Origin: a virus
Virus record (IMG/VR): IMGVR_UViG_3300024346_000638
Location: 1-20,853 of that record
Length of the DNA stretch: 20,853 nucleotides
Strand: one strand, 5' to 3'
Shown: in pieces, positions 960 to 18,591 of the stretch
Layout of the letters: each line of letters begins with the position of its first letter
How positions within the stretch are numbered: the stretch's first letter is position 1
Made by a program: the position numbers and the translations under genes
Notes under the pieces: generated by a model
Seen by the model: the letters and a program-made list of their open reading frames with translations, nothing else
Told to the model about the DNA's origin: nothing
Database searches by the model: none

Positions 960-1859
960 ATGTCAATGACTGAAGAAGAAACAAGAGAATATAGAAACAG
1001 CATTTTTGCTGCGCAACAAGCAGCCCAAGGTGGTTTGCCTGTTGTTCAAGGTATGCAAACACAATCGGCTGTGCAAGCAGCTAGACAAGCTATTGGGTTT
1101 GAACTACCAGTAGCAGAGGTACCTCTTCCATCGAAAGGTCTAGTTTATCCTGATGGTCCATTGCACATGGCTCAAACAGTTGAGCTAAAACCAATGACTG
1201 CTCGTGAAGAAGATATTCTTATGAACCGTACCCTTGTTCGTAAAGGTACTGTTGTAACTGAGCTCATCAAAAGCTGCATCATCGACAAAAGTATCGATGT
1301 TAACAGTATGATTTCTGGTGATCGTAACGCATTAATGATTGCAGTACGTATTACTGGCTACGGCGCATCTTACGCACCAAAAGTCACATGCCCAGAATGT
1401 GAATTGCAACAAGATTTCTCGGTGGATCTAGAGAATTTACCGGTAAAAGAACTGGATCTTTCAAAACTTAAGCAAGTTGGACCCGGACAAAACGCATTTG
1501 AATTCACTTTGCCATTTTCGAAGAAAACAGTGGTCTATAAGTTCCTCACTGGCCGAGAAGAAGAAAGAATGCTTCAAGATATTGAAGCACGCCGCAAGAA
1601 GGGTATTGTTCAAGAAAATCTTGTAACAACCAAACTTATGAACAGTATTGTTGCGATTGAAGGCAACACAGAACGTGGCTTTATCAATCAGTTTTGTCAA
1701 CATATGCCTGCAAGAGATTCGTTGGCGTTGCGGAAAGTTCTGGACGAATCTGAACCCGGTATCGATATGACCGCCGAATTTGTATGCAATGGATGTGGAC
1801 ATCAGGAAGGATTGACCGTTCCACTCGGTCCTACCTTTTTTTGGCCTAACGCCCGATGA
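960..1859 (+). CDS. gp26-like baseplate hub/tail assembly chaperone, 299 aa
   Basis: Resembles the T4-type baseplate protein family (T4 gp26): an N-terminal linker, then LPSKGLVYPDGP (about residues 57-68), a helical core with the MTAREEDILMN stretch, and two CxxC pairs, C144/C147 (CPEC) and C276/C279 (CNGC), that would form a zinc ribbon. In T4, genes 26 and 51 sit just before the hub and tape measure genes and are needed for baseplate hub assembly without ending up as major virion parts. The start has a clear GGAG six bases upstream. The last residues (PTFFWPNAR) are read just past a run of seven T, where the +1 frame continues into the next gene. The zero-frame product and a 383-aa fusion may both be made. 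Family call is from remembered motifs; moderately sure. Confidence 0.75.
   Translation: MSMTEEETREYRNSIFAAQQAAQGGLPVVQGMQTQSAVQAARQAIGFELPVAEVPLPSKGLVYPDGPLHMAQTVELKPMTAREEDILMNRTLVRKGTVVTELIKSCIIDKSIDVNSMISGDRNALMIAVRITGYGASYAPKVTCPECELQQDFSVDLENLPVKELDLSKLKQVGPGQNAFEFTLPFSKKTVVYKFLTGREEERMLQDIEARRKKGIVQENLVTTKLMNSIVAIEGNTERGFINQFCQHMPARDSLALRKVLDESEPGIDMTAEFVCNGCGHQEGLTVPLGPTFFWPNAR
1816..1856 (+). promoter_or_regulatory. Candidate programmed +1 (or -2) frameshift window with a T7 run
   Basis: The frame of the downstream gene opens after a TGA at 1813-1815 and overlaps the gp26-like frame until that frame's TGA at 1857-1859. Inside this 41-base overlap is TTTTTTT at 1836-1842, read in the zero frame as ACC TTT TTT TGG. 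A Phe-tRNA on TTT (1839-1841) can re-pair one base later on another TTT, giving GGC as the next codon. The joined product would run PTFF-GLTPDDIEAVLL and have 383 residues. Frameshifted chaperone pairs before the tape measure gene are common in tailed phages. A -1 shift would not reach this frame. Confidence 0.55.
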
Positions 1860-1884
1860 TATTGAAGCCGTTCTACTTGAGCCA

Positions 1885-2112
1885 ATGTTTCTGCTCGGCT
1901 ACTATTACGGAATGACATACTCCGAATATTTGAACTTCCCAGTAGCTTACAAACGTTGGCTCATAGAACGCATCAATAAAGAAATCTCAAAGGCAGCAGA
2001 TAAAAACGCAGATATCCCCAGTAAAGCTCCGCACCACAACAGCGCAGACCTAAGAGCTATGACAGGTAAAGCAAGACAGTTTGTGAACCCGAGAACACAA
2101 AGATTTACCTAG
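1885..2112 (+). CDS. gp51-like tail assembly partner, 75 aa from first ATG; likely expressed as frameshift extension
   Basis: From its first ATG this frame encodes MFLLGYYYGMTYSEYLNF followed by a basic helix (YKRWLIERINKEI) and a basic tail. It has no convincing ribosome binding site (only GAG three bases upstream). The same frame stays open backwards through sensible sequence (PDDIEAVLLEP) into the T7 run at 1836-1842, which suggests that translation enters by frameshifting from the gp26-like gene, adding 89 residues from 1843. Position matches T4 gene 51, directly after gene 26. Alternatives are a stand-alone gene started by coupling, or a single-base indel in a formerly continuous gene. 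I am fairly sure it is coding, less sure of the start. Confidence 0.65.
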   Translation: MFLLGYYYGMTYSEYLNFPVAYKRWLIERINKEISKAADKNADIPSKAPHHNSADLRAMTGKARQFVNPRTQRFT

Positions 2113-2181: not shown

Positions 2182-2485
2182 ACACTTCACTTATACTGTT
2201 GGTATACCACTTCCTCAAGGGGGCGAACTTTATCAGTTTGATGGAGAACGCTCCAAACTTGGGTCAAAAGACTTACCCGTCGGTCAGTTTTATCTCACAC
2301 GACCACTTGTAATTGCAAACAATCCTATTGCCATGGCAAGGCGTGACACAAGGTTTGGTAAACTAATTGTAAGACAATACGATTGCTATGGAATCATGAT
2401 GAAAATCGTTGAGTATAACGATGTAAAGGTGCATCAGTTGATCGATGGTCCCGATTTAATCTTGGAGTTTACATATAAACCATGA
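2174..2485 (+). CDS. Hypothetical protein before thymidine kinase, 103 aa
   Basis: The ATG at 2174 is chosen; an in-frame GTG at 2153 would add seven residues. Neither start has a visible Shine-Dalgarno sequence, and both lie in a 9-bp inverted repeat. The protein looks like a small beta-rich globular domain (alternating hydrophobics such as FYLTRPLVIA and GKLIVRQYDCYGIMMKIVEY), with one Cys and no membrane segment. Its TGA overlaps the ATG of the thymidine kinase gene (ATGA), so the two are translationally coupled and probably functionally linked. I do not recognise the family. Confidence 0.65.
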   Translation: MSQHFTYTVGIPLPQGGELYQFDGERSKLGSKDLPVGQFYLTRPLVIANNPIAMARRDTRFGKLIVRQYDCYGIMMKIVEYNDVKVHQLIDGPDLILEFTYKP

Positions 2486-3075
2486 AAACAGGAACACTTA
2501 CAGTCTATGCAGGTTCAATGTATGCAGGAAAAACAACAGCCCTAATCGCCGAGCTAGAAGCTAGTTTGGAAGAGAACAAAAATGTCCTTGTAATCAAACC
2601 GGTAATCGATGACAGATATTCAAACGATGATATCGTTTCTCACGACGGCACATCTCTCCAGAAAACAACAGGCCATGCTGTTCGTCGTTTAGGAATTAAT
2701 GAAACTCTGGATGAGTTAGATGTTGAGGGTGTTGACGTACTCTTAGTAGACGAAGCACAGTTCTTCAAAGATCTTTGTGAGGAATCGATTCCTCTTATTC
2801 TGGCATCTGGCGTTGATGTTGTTGCTGTAGGACTTGATATGGATAGTGAAGGTCAACCCTTCGGTTCTATGCCTTATCTGTTAGCTCTAGCAAACAACGT
2901 TTACAAACTTTCTGGGGTTTGTTCTGTTTGTGGTGATGAAGCAACAAGAACATTTCGAAAAGTTAATGCTTCCTCTTCTGCTCAGGTTCTTATCGGTGGA
3001 ATTGAAACCTATGAACCAAGATGCTTGGGTCATTGGATCGAAGGTCAAAAAGAAAAAAACAAATTCTTCAACTGA
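2482..3075 (+). CDS. tdk: Thymidine kinase, type II (197 aa)
   Basis: Phosphorylates thymidine to dTMP using ATP, feeding dTTP synthesis for phage replication. Visible motifs: the P-loop GSMYAGKTT (residues 11-19), the Walker B-like DEAQFF with D90 and the likely catalytic base E91, the GLDMDSEGQPFG motif after it, and a structural zinc site made of C147, C150, C181 and H184 flanking the lasso loop with the YEPRC motif. Length is normal for the bacterial/phage type II family (about 190-200 aa). It overlaps the 110-aa gene by four bases. T4 also carries a tk gene. Its TGA directly abuts the stop codon of the convergent minus-strand gene with no space for a terminator. High confidence. Confidence 0.95.
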   Translation: MKTGTLTVYAGSMYAGKTTALIAELEASLEENKNVLVIKPVIDDRYSNDDIVSHDGTSLQKTTGHAVRRLGINETLDELDVEGVDVLLVDEAQFFKDLCEESIPLILASGVDVVAVGLDMDSEGQPFGSMPYLLALANNVYKLSGVCSVCGDEATRTFRKVNASSSAQVLIGGIETYEPRCLGHWIEGQKEKNKFFN

Positions 3076-4353: not shown

Positions 4354-7300
4354 ATGGCCACAGCCGACAACCTTAAGATTGCACAACAACTGCTAGCAAC
4401 TATGCAGCAAATCACTGCACAAGTTGAAAAGCAAACAGAAGCTTATCACGCTCAAGCACAACTTGTTGACGCTTTGTGCAAAGCACAAGACTGTTTTGGT
4501 AAGATTGATGCCGTTAAGGTTAAAGAAGTAACTGAAGCTCTTCGTGAAGCTCAAGAGAAAACAAAAGAATTCGGTAAAGAAATTGAAGAAGTAGCAGAAA
4601 AAGAAGTTGGTAAACTTGAAGGTGCTGTTAGAAAACTCGCTGAAGGAGTTAAAAATCTAAGCATTCCAGCAGAGTTTCTTGGCGGCTTCAGATCTGGTTT
4701 AAATCTTTCAACAAATTTATTTAAAAACATTTTGTCTATGGGAGGTTCTGCTTTTGGTTTGCTCAAAGATATAGGCGGAATCTTTTTATCTTTACCCGGT
4801 AGGCTGTTGGACTTCTTTCAAGGTGCTGCTGGAGGTGGTACAGACGAATATAAAGGCGCACTTGAAGATCTTCGTAAAGAGTTTGGTAACTTAGAGGTAG
4901 GCACTTCTGCTGCTGTCAAAAACATGACAGAAAGTATGCATGGTTTAGGTGAATCCGGCCTTAGAATGTCTCAAGTGTTTGGCTATGGCCGTGCAGGTTT
5001 AGCCAAGCTCTTACGTGAGAACATGGAAATAGCAAAAGGCATGGGGCCAATATTTAGCGAGTTTGCTGCTTCTTTGCGAGGTTCCGAAAGAGATTTTACA
5101 GTTCTACGAAAAGCAACAGGCTTAAACGCTGAAGCATTAAAGACTTTCTATATAACTGCTAGGGAAGGCGGTGTTGATACCGGCACCGCCATTAAACAAC
5201 TAACCAAAGATATTGCAAGAGCAGAAAGAACGTTTGGTATTACTGCCAAGGAATATGGTGCTGACCTTAACTATATGATGAAGGAGACGGGGACGTTTGG
5301 GATTATGGCTCCCAAACAAATGTTGACCGTCGCAACTTATGCCAGAAAACTAGGTCTTTCTATGGAAGCACTTAAGAAAGTGATGGATAAGTCTCTTAAT
5401 TTTGAGGATGCCGCACAACAAGCTGCTAAGTTGTCGGAAGGGTTTAACATGAACATCGACGCTATGAAGTTGATGAAAGCCCAAAATCCTACAGAAAAAC
5501 TAGAGATGATGCGAAAAGCTTTCTTTAAAACTGGCAGAAACATCGAACAGATGACCATACAAGAACGTAAATACTTGGCTGAAACTGCTGGTGTTTCCGA
5601 AGAAGAAGCTAGGTTGGCATTCTCGCAAAAGAATCGAGCTTTGTCTGGAGCGGCCTTGGACGCTCAGATGAAGAAGTCTCAGAAACAACAGATATCCCAG
5701 CAAGAAGCAATGCAACAGTTGGCTAAATCGATTGAAAGATTGGTGCAGTCTGGCAGTGCAATGAAGGGATCATTCTTTGATATATTTGCCAAAGGTTTTG
5801 AAAGCGGTGTAAGACGAAGTAAAGAGTTCAGGGAAGTTACAAGAAACTTGCAGCGAAGTTTGCGGGCTGTTTATTTGGCTGGTCGTGAAGTTGGTCGCAT
5901 GTTTGTGCATGAATTCCCCGGCATAAAAGACATGTTTAAGGGTCTTGCAGAAATGTTTGATCCAAGACGCTTTAGGGATCTGATGACACAAGTCAAAGAA
6001 GAATTTCGAAAGTTTTTTAAAGCTTTGCAAACCGATCCAAAAGCAGGCGTGCAAGAGTTTATGAAGAACATGAAGAAGATATTCTTTGACTTCTTCACTA
6101 AAGGAACACCTTCTGGTATGAAGTTCCTTGATGGACTTAAAACCTTCTACAAAACAATCGGAATGATTTTTGTTGAAGGGTTAAGAAACGCACTGTCTGC
6201 CTTTAAAGACGTTCTTGGTATTGTTATTGGTTTTGTCCGTGACCCATCCAGTTTGAAAAAACTTGGTTCCGAAGCTGGCGACGGTATTAAGGGAATGTTT
6301 GTTCAAGCGTTTTCTTATGTGGTTAAAGAGCTTTGGCCATTGCTTCAAGTGATTGGTGGACAAATCGTTGAGCTTATGAAGTTGTTGTTTGAGAAGTATA
6401 TCAAACCTCACTTGCTTAAGCTTGTGGCGCTAATATTTGGTCCTGCTTTGTTTATGGGTATCGCTAGAGCCGCTGGTGCAGCTCTTCTAAAAGTTGGATT
6501 TGAAAAAGTTATAACAGGCTTTTTGGACAAAATGCCGGGAGCGGCACGGGCTGCGGGTGGTGCTGCGGGAGCCGGTGACGCCGCTAGCCAAGCACAACAA
6601 ACTGGTACCTTTGCATCAGACATGAAGAGCTTTGGTACAAACATGATTAAACTTGTTGGTGCGATGGCTGTGATTGCTGTTGCGATTAGATTGTTGATGC
6701 CAATCATTTTGTCGATTGCAAAAGAAATCGAAAACTCTGGATTGAGCAAAGAATCGATTGCGTTTACAGCGGTTTTGATTGGTATCTTTGGAGTTTTGTT
6801 TATTGGCCTTGGAAACATGGTTAAGGCAATCGCAACGGCTGATATCAAAGAAGGCGGTGTTATGAACGCCGTTAAATCGATTGGGTTGGCTAGCGTGGTC
6901 ATGTTAGCTTTGATACCCATAGCTTACTTGGCTGTTAACGTACTTGGCAAACTCCCAGCAGAAGATATAGCAAAAACAGTGTTGGTTATGAGTGCTTTCG
7001 GTGCGATGTTTGCCGGGATCGCATTACTCATTACTTTTATGGCCATGCAAAGTGTCCGATTAACGGAGGGTGCCATACCAGCTACGGTTGGTCTTGCCGC
7101 CGCAGCCCTAATGTTAGGTTTATTGGTGCCATTTGCAAGTTGGGTTATTGGAAAGCTTGGAAATATTAAAATTGCAGAAACCGAAAGTACTTTTCTTGTG
7201 TTAGGTTCGATGGTTTTGTTGCTTGGAGCAGTATCTCTTTTGTTTGTTGGTCTTGCTGCTCTTGGTGCAACAATCACGGCTTCTGCTGGTTTGGCCGTGG

Positions 7301-10014
7301 GCGCTGCCGTCGTTGGAGTCGTCGCAGCGGGCGTTGTTTTAGGATTAATGGCACCTTTTTCCAAGTGGTTAATCGGTGAACTTGGAAATGTAGACAAAGA
7401 AAAAACGGAAAAAACGTTTACTATTTTAGAATCAATGACCGAACTGTTTGCTGTTATAGCTGCTATGATCATGGGTATAGCTTTAGCATCAAACAATATC
7501 GGCTTAACCGCAATTGCCAAAATGACATTCATGCTCTACAAGGTAAAAGATACGGTTAATGTGTTGATCGGAATAGCAAAAAATATGCTTAAGGACTTGG
7601 GTACGGTCAATATCGATGAAAGTAAAGCAAAAGCCGCTGCTACGATTATGTCGGCTGTTGGCAATCTAATGAAAGATGTTATTGAGTCGATGGCATCTCT
7701 TGCTCTTGCTGGCCGTGGTAGTTTAGTGGGCATGATCGTTGGCCTCGACGCTAGTAATAGTTTTGGAAAGATCAAAGATATGCTCGTCGGACCTAATGGT
7801 TTGCTTAACACCATTAAAACAATTGTCTCAGATCTTATCACTACTATAGGAAACATTCAAGGCGATCCTGCTGTTCTTAAAGCCAAAGCAGAAGTTTTCG
7901 AAACGGTAGCGAAAGGGATCAGTAACATGCTGCCACCTTTAGCTAGACTCATTGAAGCTATAAGTTCATCAGGCAGCAACAGCTTGATTGGAATTCTCTT
8001 TGGGGCCGACGCAGGAGCTTTAATAGGTAATCTTGACAAAATCAAAAAATTTGTAGAAGACTTCCTTAATGGAATATTTAAAGGGCCAGACGGAATCGTT
8101 CCAAAGATTGCTGACAGCTTTAAAAACTTGAATCCATCTCAAGTTGAAGGTGTAAAAGCAGGCGCAACACTTCTTAGTTCATTTGTTCCTGCAATAGCTC
8201 AACTAACAGGATCGTTGCCAGAAACCATTAGAGCCGTTACAGGATTGGTTGATGAACTTAACACTGAAGACCAGATTGGTTGGGTTTTGGATAGTATCAA
8301 AAACTTGGTCACTGGAATAGTTGGATCGATGAGTTCAACTTTGACTAGTGTGATTTCCAGCATTAGTACACTTCTAAACAACAGTGCAATAACTCCAGAA
8401 AAACTAAAAGCTGCCGAAAGTATTGGCAACATACTAAAAGGCGTGGCCGAGTTAGCTAAAGTATTTGTTCTAACTCCAGATCAACTTAGATTTTTTAGAG
8501 TTTCAACAACTTGGACCGGAGCGCAAGAAAACTTAGATACTTCTGGCCTCTCAGCATATATGTCCAACATTACCACACAAGTTGAAAAACTTATAAATGG
8601 TGATGGAACACCAAACAACAAAGGCATCAAAGGAATCATTGAAGTTATCACTAGCATGACTGTTGATGAAAACAAAATCAAAGGCATTCAAGCTGTTACT
8701 TCGATCTTGGAAGTTTTGGGAAGAATCATTCCTTCAGTGATGGAATCGATGCGTTCTGCATCTGATAGCGTAAGAGCTGCATCTTTAACACCAGAACAAA
8801 TACAAGCAAGACAAAACTTGATTAGCACAACTCTTACATCAATATCAACGTTTATCAGTGACATGATGACAACGATTATTCCAAAAGTAATAACTTCGTT
8901 GCAAGATTTAAACATTGACACAAAGGCTTTAGCTTCAAAGATTAACGCAGTCAAAGGTGTGTTTGAGCTTATCAACACCATTACCGCAATAACCAACTCT
9001 TTGAAAGTGACAACCACGGGTGCAGGAGGTGCAACAACCACAAGCGTTCAAAGTGTGTTGGATACCATCAACCCTCCTTTAAACTTACTGATTGGATTGT
9101 TTAGCAAAACCGGCGTGGGTGACGTGCCGGGATATGGTAATACAACATACGCCGCACTAAACGCTCTTGCTACTTTTCCAGTACCAAAAGGTATTGCAGC
9201 AAAAGCAACAACAATAAAAACGGTTTTTGAAGCTATTAAAACTCTTATTGAGGCAACTAGAGCCTTGAAGGATATTGCAGGTTCAAACACAACTCCGATT
9301 GCTGCAAATGTTTTGGACGTTCCGCTTCAAAACATTGACAATGTGCTTCGTAGTTTAACAAGCACGGGCACTTCTGGAGGTCGTGGGGTTAATCCATTAA
9401 TGGATCAAAGCCGTGATAATCCACTTTTTAAACTTGGTGGAATATCACAGAGACTTAAAGGCAAGGCTGCCAAAATGACTGACATCGCTAGCAGCGTAGG
9501 AGAATTGATACGTGGCGCCGAAACGCTGGCCAATCTACCAGTTATCGGCTCAAACGCCGCAACGAAATTGGACAATAACCTTGTTGCAGTCTTTGGCCAT
9601 GGCACAGATATGGACTTTGATTCTATACTAGGTATTTTAGACTATCATTTTGGTTATATAGATTCCGAAGGTGGAGGAAGGATAACGACCATTACCACTA
9701 ATATAAGAGATAGAATTCTTACACCTATGAGAGACATGGTTAGCGCATACAATGAGTTTTCGGCAGAAATTGGAAGATTGGGTCAAGGTGTTGCTCCTTT
9801 GCAATTAAGTTTGGATAATTTGGGTTCAAGACTTGGTGCGGCTCAATCTATGACTGTTCGCAATGCCGCCGTCAACGCAACAATCAACGTTAACGTTACA
9901 TTAGATACTGATCAAATCACTACCGCACAACGTACTCGTTCCTCGAATGCAACGGCAACATCGCCTGTGCTTCAAATGACTGCATTTAACCCTAAATGGG
10001 GTACCCAAGGATGA
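4354..10014 (+). CDS. Tail tape measure protein, 1886 aa
   Basis: Sets tail length by spanning the tube during assembly and is later ejected. Evidence is size (the largest gene here), position after the gp26/gp51-like chaperones and before baseplate genes, a helical coiled-coil N-terminus (to about residue 105), a long helical body, and a hydrophobic block at about residues 687-1051 with many membrane-like segments. That block contains about four units of 70-76 residues; the last ones share the pattern W(V/L)IG(K/E)LGN followed by a T/S-rich hinge and a hydrophobic run. The C-terminal half is a series of Ile/Leu/Ser/Thr-rich helices. No peptidase or lysozyme motif was seen. AGGAG precedes the ATG. 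Its TGA overlaps the next ATG. T4's own tape measure (gp29) is far shorter. Function is confident; finer domains are not. Confidence 0.88.
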   Translation: MATADNLKIAQQLLATMQQITAQVEKQTEAYHAQAQLVDALCKAQDCFGKIDAVKVKEVTEALREAQEKTKEFGKEIEEVAEKEVGKLEGAVRKLAEGVKNLSIPAEFLGGFRSGLNLSTNLFKNILSMGGSAFGLLKDIGGIFLSLPGRLLDFFQGAAGGGTDEYKGALEDLRKEFGNLEVGTSAAVKNMTESMHGLGESGLRMSQVFGYGRAGLAKLLRENMEIAKGMGPIFSEFAASLRGSERDFTVLRKATGLNAEALKTFYITAREGGVDTGTAIKQLTKDIARAERTFGITAKEYGADLNYMMKETGTFGIMAPKQMLTVATYARKLGLSMEALKKVMDKSLNFEDAAQQAAKLSEGFNMNIDAMKLMKAQNPTEKLEMMRKAFFKTGRNIEQMTIQERKYLAETAGVSEEEARLAFSQKNRALSGAALDAQMKKSQKQQISQQEAMQQLAKSIERLVQSGSAMKGSFFDIFAKGFESGVRRSKEFREVTRNLQRSLRAVYLAGREVGRMFVHEFPGIKDMFKGLAEMFDPRRFRDLMTQVKEEFRKFFKALQTDPKAGVQEFMKNMKKIFFDFFTKGTPSGMKFLDGLKTFYKTIGMIFVEGLRNALSAFKDVLGIVIGFVRDPSSLKKLGSEAGDGIKGMFVQAFSYVVKELWPLLQVIGGQIVELMKLLFEKYIKPHLLKLVALIFGPALFMGIARAAGAALLKVGFEKVITGFLDKMPGAARAAGGAAGAGDAASQAQQTGTFASDMKSFGTNMIKLVGAMAVIAVAIRLLMPIILSIAKEIENSGLSKESIAFTAVLIGIFGVLFIGLGNMVKAIATADIKEGGVMNAVKSIGLASVVMLALIPIAYLAVNVLGKLPAEDIAKTVLVMSAFGAMFAGIALLITFMAMQSVRLTEGAIPATVGLAAAALMLGLLVPFASWVIGKLGNIKIAETESTFLVLGSMVLLLGAVSLLFVGLAALGATITASAGLAVGAAVVGVVAAGVVLGLMAPFSKWLIGELGNVDKEKTEKTFTILESMTELFAVIAAMIMGIALASNNIGLTAIAKMTFMLYKVKDTVNVLIGIAKNMLKDLGTVNIDESKAKAAATIMSAVGNLMKDVIESMASLALAGRGSLVGMIVGLDASNSFGKIKDMLVGPNGLLNTIKTIVSDLITTIGNIQGDPAVLKAKAEVFETVAKGISNMLPPLARLIEAISSSGSNSLIGILFGADAGALIGNLDKIKKFVEDFLNGIFKGPDGIVPKIADSFKNLNPSQVEGVKAGATLLSSFVPAIAQLTGSLPETIRAVTGLVDELNTEDQIGWVLDSIKNLVTGIVGSMSSTLTSVISSISTLLNNSAITPEKLKAAESIGNILKGVAELAKVFVLTPDQLRFFRVSTTWTGAQENLDTSGLSAYMSNITTQVEKLINGDGTPNNKGIKGIIEVITSMTVDENKIKGIQAVTSILEVLGRIIPSVMESMRSASDSVRAASLTPEQIQARQNLISTTLTSISTFISDMMTTIIPKVITSLQDLNIDTKALASKINAVKGVFELINTITAITNSLKVTTTGAGGATTTSVQSVLDTINPPLNLLIGLFSKTGVGDVPGYGNTTYAALNALATFPVPKGIAAKATTIKTVFEAIKTLIEATRALKDIAGSNTTPIAANVLDVPLQNIDNVLRSLTSTGTSGGRGVNPLMDQSRDNPLFKLGGISQRLKGKAAKMTDIASSVGELIRGAETLANLPVIGSNAATKLDNNLVAVFGHGTDMDFDSILGILDYHFGYIDSEGGGRITTITTNIRDRILTPMRDMVSAYNEFSAEIGRLGQGVAPLQLSLDNLGSRLGAAQSMTVRNAAVNATINVNVTLDTDQITTAQRTRSSNATATSPVLQMTAFNPKWGTQG

Positions 10015-13805: not shown

Positions 13806-14099
13806 ATGGCTACAAGCAGATACACCTTGACACCCAAAGTTAACTTCAATTTTCAATATGGTACAAGTGATACTATAGCAAAGATTCGTAGTGGGGTTGC
13901 TGCTGGACAAATCAGCGTTAACGTGATTTTTCTTAAAGAACTAATACGCTTGGATGTCTTGGCAGGTCAATACTACGGCGATGGAAAGTATTACTGGCTC
14001 ATAGCCGCCGCAAGTAACATAGGCTGGTGTACACAGATTCCTCCCAACACGAGAATCGTGATTCCAGACCTCCAGCAAGCACTTCAGTTCTTAGGCTAA
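13806..14099 (+). CDS. gp53-like baseplate wedge protein with LysM-type fold, 97 aa
   Basis: The body reads RLDVLAGQYYGDGKYYWLIAAAS followed by NIGWCTQIPPNTRIVIPDL, the pattern of small LysM-like phage baseplate proteins such as T4 gp53 and P2 gpX: RLD.LA..YYGD...WW.IA..N.I.....I.PG..L.IP. In T4, gp53 joins the wedges around the hub. Length is shorter than T4 gp53 (about 196 aa) and close to the minimal LysM domain plus N-terminal arm. It starts five bases after the preceding gene, with weak AAAGG upstream, and is followed by the hub gene, the expected neighbourhood. Family call is by remembered pattern, fairly sure. Confidence 0.75.
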   Translation: MATSRYTLTPKVNFNFQYGTSDTIAKIRSGVAAGQISVNVIFLKELIRLDVLAGQYYGDGKYYWLIAAASNIGWCTQIPPNTRIVIPDLQQALQFLG

Positions 14100-17478: not shown

Positions 17479-18591
17479 ATGGTCATGGATCATATCGAAG
17501 AACTCATCTCGCAGTTATATCTCGTCAGACAACCGCAACAACCTCCAGAACCGTTTATAAGGGCTTATAGGGGCTTGTCTCCAAGGCTGCAAGGCAATGC
17601 CGTACCTTGGCATTTAACGCTGCCTAAAAGCCTGTATAATCAGATTGAAAGGGATCAAGAAAGGTTCCACGCTGAACTTAACAGTCTAGATCTTGGATAT
17701 CTTCAAGACGTGTATATTCCAACACAAAAAGTGTTTGATTATATCATGCCAGCAAAGATTAATGTTGAACGTTATGAACAGTACGCAAAACTGGATCAAA
17801 CTGGTCATATCACATCGTTTAAACCAAACGGTTTAGGTTATGCTCAACCGGTTGAATATGATCGTGTAAGCAACATTACAGGAAGATTTAAAACAACTTC
17901 TGGACCTATGCTCTTGCACCTTCCAAAAATTTATCGAAGTGTGCTTGAAAGTCGTTGGGGTAATAATGGTCAGGTTATCTCCTTAGACTATAAATCACTG
18001 GAACCGAGAGTGTTGTTGGCTACATGTGGAACACAACCAAGGGAGAGGGACGTATATGACTCTATTGGTCTCTCTTTATTCCAAGATAATCTGGAAGTAA
18101 CCCGTGAGGTTGTTAAGAAGATTGTTTTGTCTGAGCTATATGGAGCGGGCATAGAAACTCTACGTCAACGTTTACCCAACATTCAAAATCTTGAAGCAGT
18201 TGTTAAGCAGATTGCAGAATGGTTCGGTTTAGAATCTCTTCGTTCCAAACTGTATGAACAGTGGAAAGAAACTGGATATAAGTTCGTCACCAATTTTTAT
18301 GGGAGAAGAGTTAAGACTGAAACTGCACACACGCTTGTGAATCATTACGTACAAAGTACGGCAGTGGATGTTGCAACGTTGGGATTCTTGAATATTCTAG
18401 ATTATGTGGCAGAGATCGGTAAAGAGGATGAGATTATTCCTATGTTTATTCTTCACGATGCGTTGGTGCTTGATATTCATGAAAATAGTTTTAGTATGAT
18501 TAATGGTTTGTGTAAATTGGGTAGTATGGACATCAGGAATCTAGAAGCCACCACATTTTATATGTCAATAGACAAAAGGTTTTCAGAATAA
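17479..18591 (+). CDS. Miniature family A DNA polymerase (palm/fingers only), 370 aa
   Basis: Motifs of PolA-type polymerases are present in order: TGRFKTT (T-G-R), motif A SLDYKSLEPRV with catalytic D170, motif B R209-x3-K213-x7-Y221-G222 (REVVKKIVLSELYGAG), QSTAVDVATLGF, and motif C LHDALVLD with H326 and catalytic D327. The second acidic residue of the usual HDE is Ala328. The position equivalent to E. coli Phe762 is Leu217. Only about 140 residues precede the T-G-R motif, so there is no 3'-5' or 5'-3' exonuclease domain and a reduced thumb. ATG 17479 is used; ATG 17485 is an alternative, and neither has a strong Shine-Dalgarno. The TAA overlaps the next ATG. Split PolA genes are known in the T4-related thermophage RM378, so the exonuclease may be encoded elsewhere. 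It could also serve repair. Confidence 0.82.
   Translation: MVMDHIEELISQLYLVRQPQQPPEPFIRAYRGLSPRLQGNAVPWHLTLPKSLYNQIERDQERFHAELNSLDLGYLQDVYIPTQKVFDYIMPAKINVERYEQYAKLDQTGHITSFKPNGLGYAQPVEYDRVSNITGRFKTTSGPMLLHLPKIYRSVLESRWGNNGQVISLDYKSLEPRVLLATCGTQPRERDVYDSIGLSLFQDNLEVTREVVKKIVLSELYGAGIETLRQRLPNIQNLEAVVKQIAEWFGLESLRSKLYEQWKETGYKFVTNFYGRRVKTETAHTLVNHYVQSTAVDVATLGFLNILDYVAEIGKEDEIIPMFILHDALVLDIHENSFSMINGLCKLGSMDIRNLEATTFYMSIDKRFSE

Follow-up and report, generated by a model that had tools for sequence, protein, structure and literature searches.

A probable programmed +1 ribosomal frameshift in a gp26-like tail assembly chaperone gene of contractile-tailed phages

The window analysed here is a stretch of viral DNA of 20,853 nucleotides, which is IMG/VR record IMGVR_UViG_3300024346_000638 from position 1 to 20,853. 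On its plus strand, an ORF at 960..1859 has a zero-frame product of 299 amino acids. This protein matches PF12322 (T4_baseplate) with an E-value of 6.4e-16 and 59.1 bits, against a curated cut-off of 24.5. It also matches the baseplate hub family phrog_150 (E 5.1e-21) and, in hhalign, the T4 gp26 family (E 1.3e-6). The ORF stops at a TGA at 1857-1859. A second frame is open from 1816 to 2112 and is bounded upstream by a TGA at 1813-1815.

The two open frames overlap for 41 nucleotides of the plus strand (1816..1856), in phase +1. The overlap contains a run of seven T's at 1836-1842, which the gp26 frame reads as TTT TTT TGG. An earlier note on this DNA had described this overlap and the site within it, and both are as it said. 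It had also claimed that a +1 slip leads straight into the second ORF. This was borne out: the +1 reading across the junction gives ...PTFFGLTPDDIEAVLLEPMF..., and the fused product counts 294 + 89 = 383 amino acids.

The 89 amino acids that a +1 shift would add are encoded at 1843..2112 on the plus strand. This second domain is identified by its frame relation in relatives, by its dN/dS and by an AF2 model, which is helical with a pLDDT of 80. The window's own copy has no match in Pfam, PHROGs or NCBIfam; 6 out of 25 relatives match DUF6760 (PF20546) at E <= 0.1, the best at 1.1e-7. PDB fold searches with models of gp26 and of the second domain returned nothing significant. For gp26, the highest-probability match was the HK97 chaperone 2ob9, at a non-significant 0.28.

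The phages immuto, LIS04 and SP-15 have the gene order sheath, tube, gp26, second ORF, tape measure. This places the pair where G/GT sits in lambda. In the window the pair precedes an ORF of 1886 amino acids (4354..10014, plus strand), with a thymidine kinase-like gene and others in between. No family match was found for the long ORF, but by its length and position it is probably the tape measure protein, the expected client of a chaperone.

Some other genes of the window can be recognised. The thymidine kinase-like ORF (2482-3075) was seen by eye, and contains GSMYAGKTT. An ORF at 13806-14099 (97 amino acids) matches the baseplate wedge family phrog_7145 with an E-value of 3.8e-5. At 17479-18591 there is an ORF of 370 amino acids with palm-like motifs of a family A DNA polymerase, again by eye (DYKSLEPRVLLA, LSELYGAG and HDALVLDI); it is short for a polymerase.

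Relatives were gathered from viral contigs and phage records, using the window's gp26, its second domain and their relatives as queries. This gave 179 distinct junctions. At 171 of them, down to identities of 24-40%, the second frame stands in +1 relative to gp26. Three more could not be classified because contig ends cut them; all three carry TTT TTT TGG. The other five have a different frame, and are four jumbo phages plus LR756511 (L047), which is off-pattern and was set aside. From binned bacterial genomes came 13 further loci, evidently phages, and these are +1 without exception (13/13). An arrangement this regular is far beyond what chance would produce.

Firmicute and Streptomyces relatives (L048, L049, L050, L051, L055 and L138) also have their second frame in +1. 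Their joints read TTT CAC, TTT CGT, TTT CGC, TTT CAG or TTT AGT. One of these, TTT CGT, also forms the core of the +1 site in influenza PA-X.

The slip site itself was studied in the 167 loci with an FxWP or FxYP ending. In the window it is TTT TTT TGG CCT, at 1836..1847 on the plus strand. The form TTY YTT TGG/TAC CCN is found in 164 of the 167, made up of TTT TTT TGG (114 loci), TTT CTT TGG (39), TTC TTT TGG (7), TTT TTT TAC (3) and TTT CTT TAC (1); the last three loci have TTT CTA TGG. The earlier note had taken the T7 run as the key feature. The run is present in the window and in 117 loci, but is not itself conserved, since the remaining 50 have TTT CTT, TTC TTT or TTT CTA. The conserved unit is TTY YTT T, and the junction as a whole is kept as TTY YTT TGG CCT.

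All sites other than CTA would allow the tRNA on the second codon to re-pair one base ahead, onto TTT. The three CTA loci, and LR756508, would require a slip one codon earlier, from TTT to TTC. When the open windows of the 167 loci are intersected, the shift is confined to 18 nucleotides, from -2 to +15 relative to the first T of the motif. Here this corresponds to 1834..1851 on the plus strand.

Codon choice at the site is constrained. At under 75% identity there are 88 non-redundant loci, and all 88 have YTT as their second slip codon, where 56 would be expected from each gene's codon usage. All 14 leucine codons at this position are CTT, against 3.2 expected. Within gp26, synonymous codon conservation at the site has ratios of 1.41, 1.60 and 2.23; elsewhere this is 0.99 +/- 0.14, with a maximum of 1.45. 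The overlap just upstream of the site shows no such rise, which suggests that the +1 frame is not read there. Dual coding past the shift would account for part of the conservation, which means that codon conservation alone cannot prove the exact slip codon.

The second frame is under selection as a protein. From the gp26 stop up to the first common ATG, dN/dS is 0.15 in the +1 frame and 4.35 and 1.04 in the other frames; past this ATG it is 0.07 in the second frame. In the window, the second frame offers its first ATG at 1885, and no Shine-Dalgarno was found there. Across the 167 loci, 44 have no second-frame start codon in reach at all, and only 25 have one with a Shine-Dalgarno. The 142 others lack such a start, and none occurs at a common position. 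The absence of a proper ribosome binding site, which the earlier note had remarked on, extends from the window to most of its relatives. The counter-case it had named, homologues with a well-placed start for the second gene and no overlap, fails since there is no such start. Because the second frame evolves as a protein yet has no shared start, it would most simply be entered from gp26.

The main alternative is that the second frame is a separate gene, reached by termination-reinitiation or by an internal start, for example at ATG 1885. This ATG is only 25 nucleotides past the gp26 stop, and 123 of the 167 loci offer some ATG, GTG or TTG up to 30 nucleotides past it. In addition Cygsa01, a relative from the -1 group described below, is annotated with two genes that overlap at TAATG. 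Such starts are not at a common position, however, and the strong purifying selection in the +1 frame already applies ahead of ATG 1885. Reinitiation also leaves the codon constraint at TTY YTT TGG unexplained. A separate gene is therefore unlikely, and a start belonging to the second ORF itself was rejected on the start-codon survey and the dN/dS values.

The phase, the conserved site, the protein-level selection and the missing start can all be read directly from the sequences. Aligning homologues had been proposed in the earlier note as a check; this was done, and phase, site and missing start all turned out to be conserved. This supports its idea of a frameshifted chaperone pair ahead of the tape measure gene. 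Very probably, then, the window comes from a contractile-tailed phage in which a tail assembly chaperone gene undergoes programmed +1 ribosomal frameshifting.

It would work as follows. Most ribosomes would translate TTT TTT TGG CCT AAC in the gp26 frame and terminate at 1857-1859; their product would be the short chaperone of 299 amino acids. In a fraction of ribosomes, which pause while TTT (or CTT, in some relatives) occupies the P site, the P-site tRNA would re-pair one base ahead, from the TTT at 1839-1841 to the TTT at 1840-1842. They would then read GGC CTA ACG CCC... up to 2112, and produce the long form of 383 amino acids, with its helical second domain of 89 residues. The shift by the ribosome, its efficiency and the chaperone function are inferred.

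The earlier note had allowed for either +1 or -2. A -2 shift, as reported for phage Mu, would reach the same frame. TTT TTT TGG and TTT CTT TGG permit re-pairing two bases back, and there is a Shine-Dalgarno-like element far upstream; distant elements of this kind have been linked to backward shifts. The variants argue against it, however. TTC TTT TGG (7 loci, 4 of them non-redundant, and also L223) would put tRNA-Phe on TCT, a mismatch, and the TTC TTT CGT of GXN1 would do likewise. TTT CTA TGG would put tRNA-Leu(UAG) on TTC, again mismatched. A +1 shift is possible at every site. Of the two options +1 is favoured, and -2 is very unlikely.

The RNA polymerase might also slip on the T run, leading to mRNAs one base longer or shorter. 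The T7 run in 117 of the 167 loci would fit with this, but in the other 50 the run is broken to 3 or 4 T's and the frame relation is unchanged. Given that TTC TTT TGG and TTT CTT TGG hold at most 3 or 4 T's, polymerase slippage is highly improbable. Since some variants break the T run, and some disallow re-pairing two bases back, a ribosomal +1 shift is the simplest reading.

An indel from assembly or sequencing, or a pseudogene in decay, has the homopolymer alone in its favour and can safely be dismissed; the simple indel that the earlier note had named as a refutation fails, as the same overlap is found in more than 170 independent contigs, and the arrangement also in the isolates SP-15, Mel-JY01 and immuto.

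Upstream of the site, at 1804..1811 on the plus strand, lies AGGAAGGA, a weak Shine-Dalgarno-like element that ends 27 nucleotides before the second slip codon. In relatives this element is mostly GGAGGT, and its distance to the second slip codon is 19 nucleotides (26 loci), 25 nucleotides (26) or 27-29 nucleotides (18). Compared to synonymous shuffles that keep the protein, the element is stronger in the 88 non-redundant loci (-10.06 versus -5.56 kcal/mol, Wilcoxon p 7e-16). Its conservation exceeds what coding requires.

A role as an internal start was rejected in general, as no shared start codon follows the element. Start codons are found after it in frame 0 in 20 of 78 loci and in frame +1 in 8 of 78, where the control rates are 14% and 30%. 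Elements known to act on frameshifting are located 3 nucleotides (prfB, +1) or about 10 nucleotides (dnaX, -1) upstream, and the spacing found here resembles neither. Downstream, there is no sign of a 3' stem or pseudoknot, with mean MFE z-scores between -0.25 and -0.78 and no covarying pair.

The same junction is found in more distant relatives, in other forms. In the cyanophage-type loci (L258-L337), gp26 ends in T TTT TTC in 76 out of 76 cases. The second domain is in -1 in 75 of these, and the other locus is cut short. The T4-like cyanophage-type gp26 genes of S-RIM8 (L254), L255 and L256 have T TTT TTC at their ends as well, and again the second domain follows in -1. The combination is also present in Aeromonas 65.2 and SRB7757, and in the jumbo phages Atu_ph07, PA5oct, 121Q and Phosso (L052, L053, L054, L056). 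Annotations of these loci vary: the 'baseplate hub assembly catalyst' of S-RIM8 is a stub of 45 amino acids, and in 121Q and Phosso the second domain is annotated as a separate gene that overlaps the gp26 stop.

There are also fusions, in sheath-tube clusters of bacterial genomes. L238 (1369-2124) and L239 (1336-2091) have PF12322 and PF20546, above or near the cut-off, in one uninterrupted ORF of 251 amino acids, with FF at the joint. In the third such cluster, L237 (1378-2106), one ORF reads ...AGFFWAELDAW...; its formal match is to PF12322 only, and both domains were seen in one frame by eye. In L234 they are apparently two genes. A PF12322 scan of genome contigs returned only phages binned with the genomes; the injection systems were found by a family search in one phylum. 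To judge by these matches, bacterial phage-like injection systems carry the same two domains fused in-frame. A natural fusion of this kind speaks for the frameshift product being a real protein.

According to Vladimirov, Gautam and Davidson (Virology 2022, as cited in PMC10885494), the T4 proteins gp26 and gp51 are short and long tail chaperones, and phages like T4 have one short chaperone gene and one that is long and fused. As far as this citation goes, the T4 pair has already been described as chaperones. Both T4 families are of the same family as the window's gp26. T4 encodes the two proteins separately, on opposite strands, and does not frameshift, whereas here there would be one gene with +1 recoding.

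By hhalign the families of gp26 and gp51 are paralogues (E 1e-22), and both match phrog_150. T4 gp51 is longer than gp26 at its C terminus. This extension aligns in register with the second domain at an E-value of 0.06-0.24, which is non-significant alone; the fused product aligns with the gp51 family at 3.4e-4, and one member's second domain matches phrog_634 at 0.047. The earlier note had spoken of a gp26/gp51-like pair. The gp26 half of this stands, but the second frame is not a whole gp51, and corresponds weakly to the C-terminal extension. When a tree is built from the first domain, a single change suffices for the +1 rows, although support for that branch is low (31/8); the T4 pair is nested among the -1 rows.

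Frameshifted tail chaperone pairs are usually -1. The tail assembly chaperones G/GT of lambda, for example, use a -1 frameshift (Atkins 2016, PMC5009743). The likeness lies in two products from overlapping frames between the tube and tape measure genes, with no start for the second frame; the differences are that the shift is +1, and that a member of the T4 gp26 family comes first. On the best reading, gp26 would be the short tail assembly chaperone and the 383 amino acid +1 product the long one. The analogy with gpG and gpGT of lambda suggests that the tape measure protein would be coated by the short form, and that the tail tube subunit would be recruited by the long one.

Forward shifts in tail chaperone genes are not new. 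The haloarchaeal myovirus HSTV-2 has a +1 frameshifted tail chaperone (Atkins 2016, PMC5009743), and 350 forward sites are reported for SEA-PHAGES (PRFect, PMC10885494), where the 'four' motif covers TTT T. A conserved TTY YTT TGG was not found described for these sites in the literature consulted.

The +1 site of bacterial prfB is CUU UGA, with a Shine-Dalgarno 3 nucleotides upstream. The similarity is that CTT T in the P site slips to TTT, as it would in the CTT variants here, and that there is a Shine-Dalgarno-like element upstream. Unlike prfB, a sense codon (TGG or TAC) follows instead of a stop, and the element is 19-29 nucleotides away, not 3.

No description of a +1 frameshift in gp26 genes was found in the openly accessible literature. 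Such a frameshift is opposite in direction to the usual one, and would occur in a family where frameshifting was thought to be absent. T4 has been named as an exception to the conserved tail-chaperone frameshift (Atkins 2016, PMC5009743). The gp26 family around T4 widely carries putative recoding signals, in both directions. Gene callers overlook the second product or cut it short: in the annotations of SP-15, immuto, LIS04, BRock and LuckySocke it is either missing or a stub of 36-60 amino acids.

A wider reading is offered tentatively. One homologous junction may have been solved in four ways: +1 in this clade, -1 on T TTT TTC in cyanophage-type and jumbo phages, duplication in T4, and fusion in the injection systems. 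With this would come a new signal, TTY YTT TGG, with a Shine-Dalgarno-like element 19 or 25 nucleotides upstream that might stimulate or tune +1 by an undescribed geometry. We know of no general motif that is accepted for a bacterial forward slip at a sense codon. More than 170 natural variants of one +1 site would be an unusually rich set on forward slipping at sense codons.
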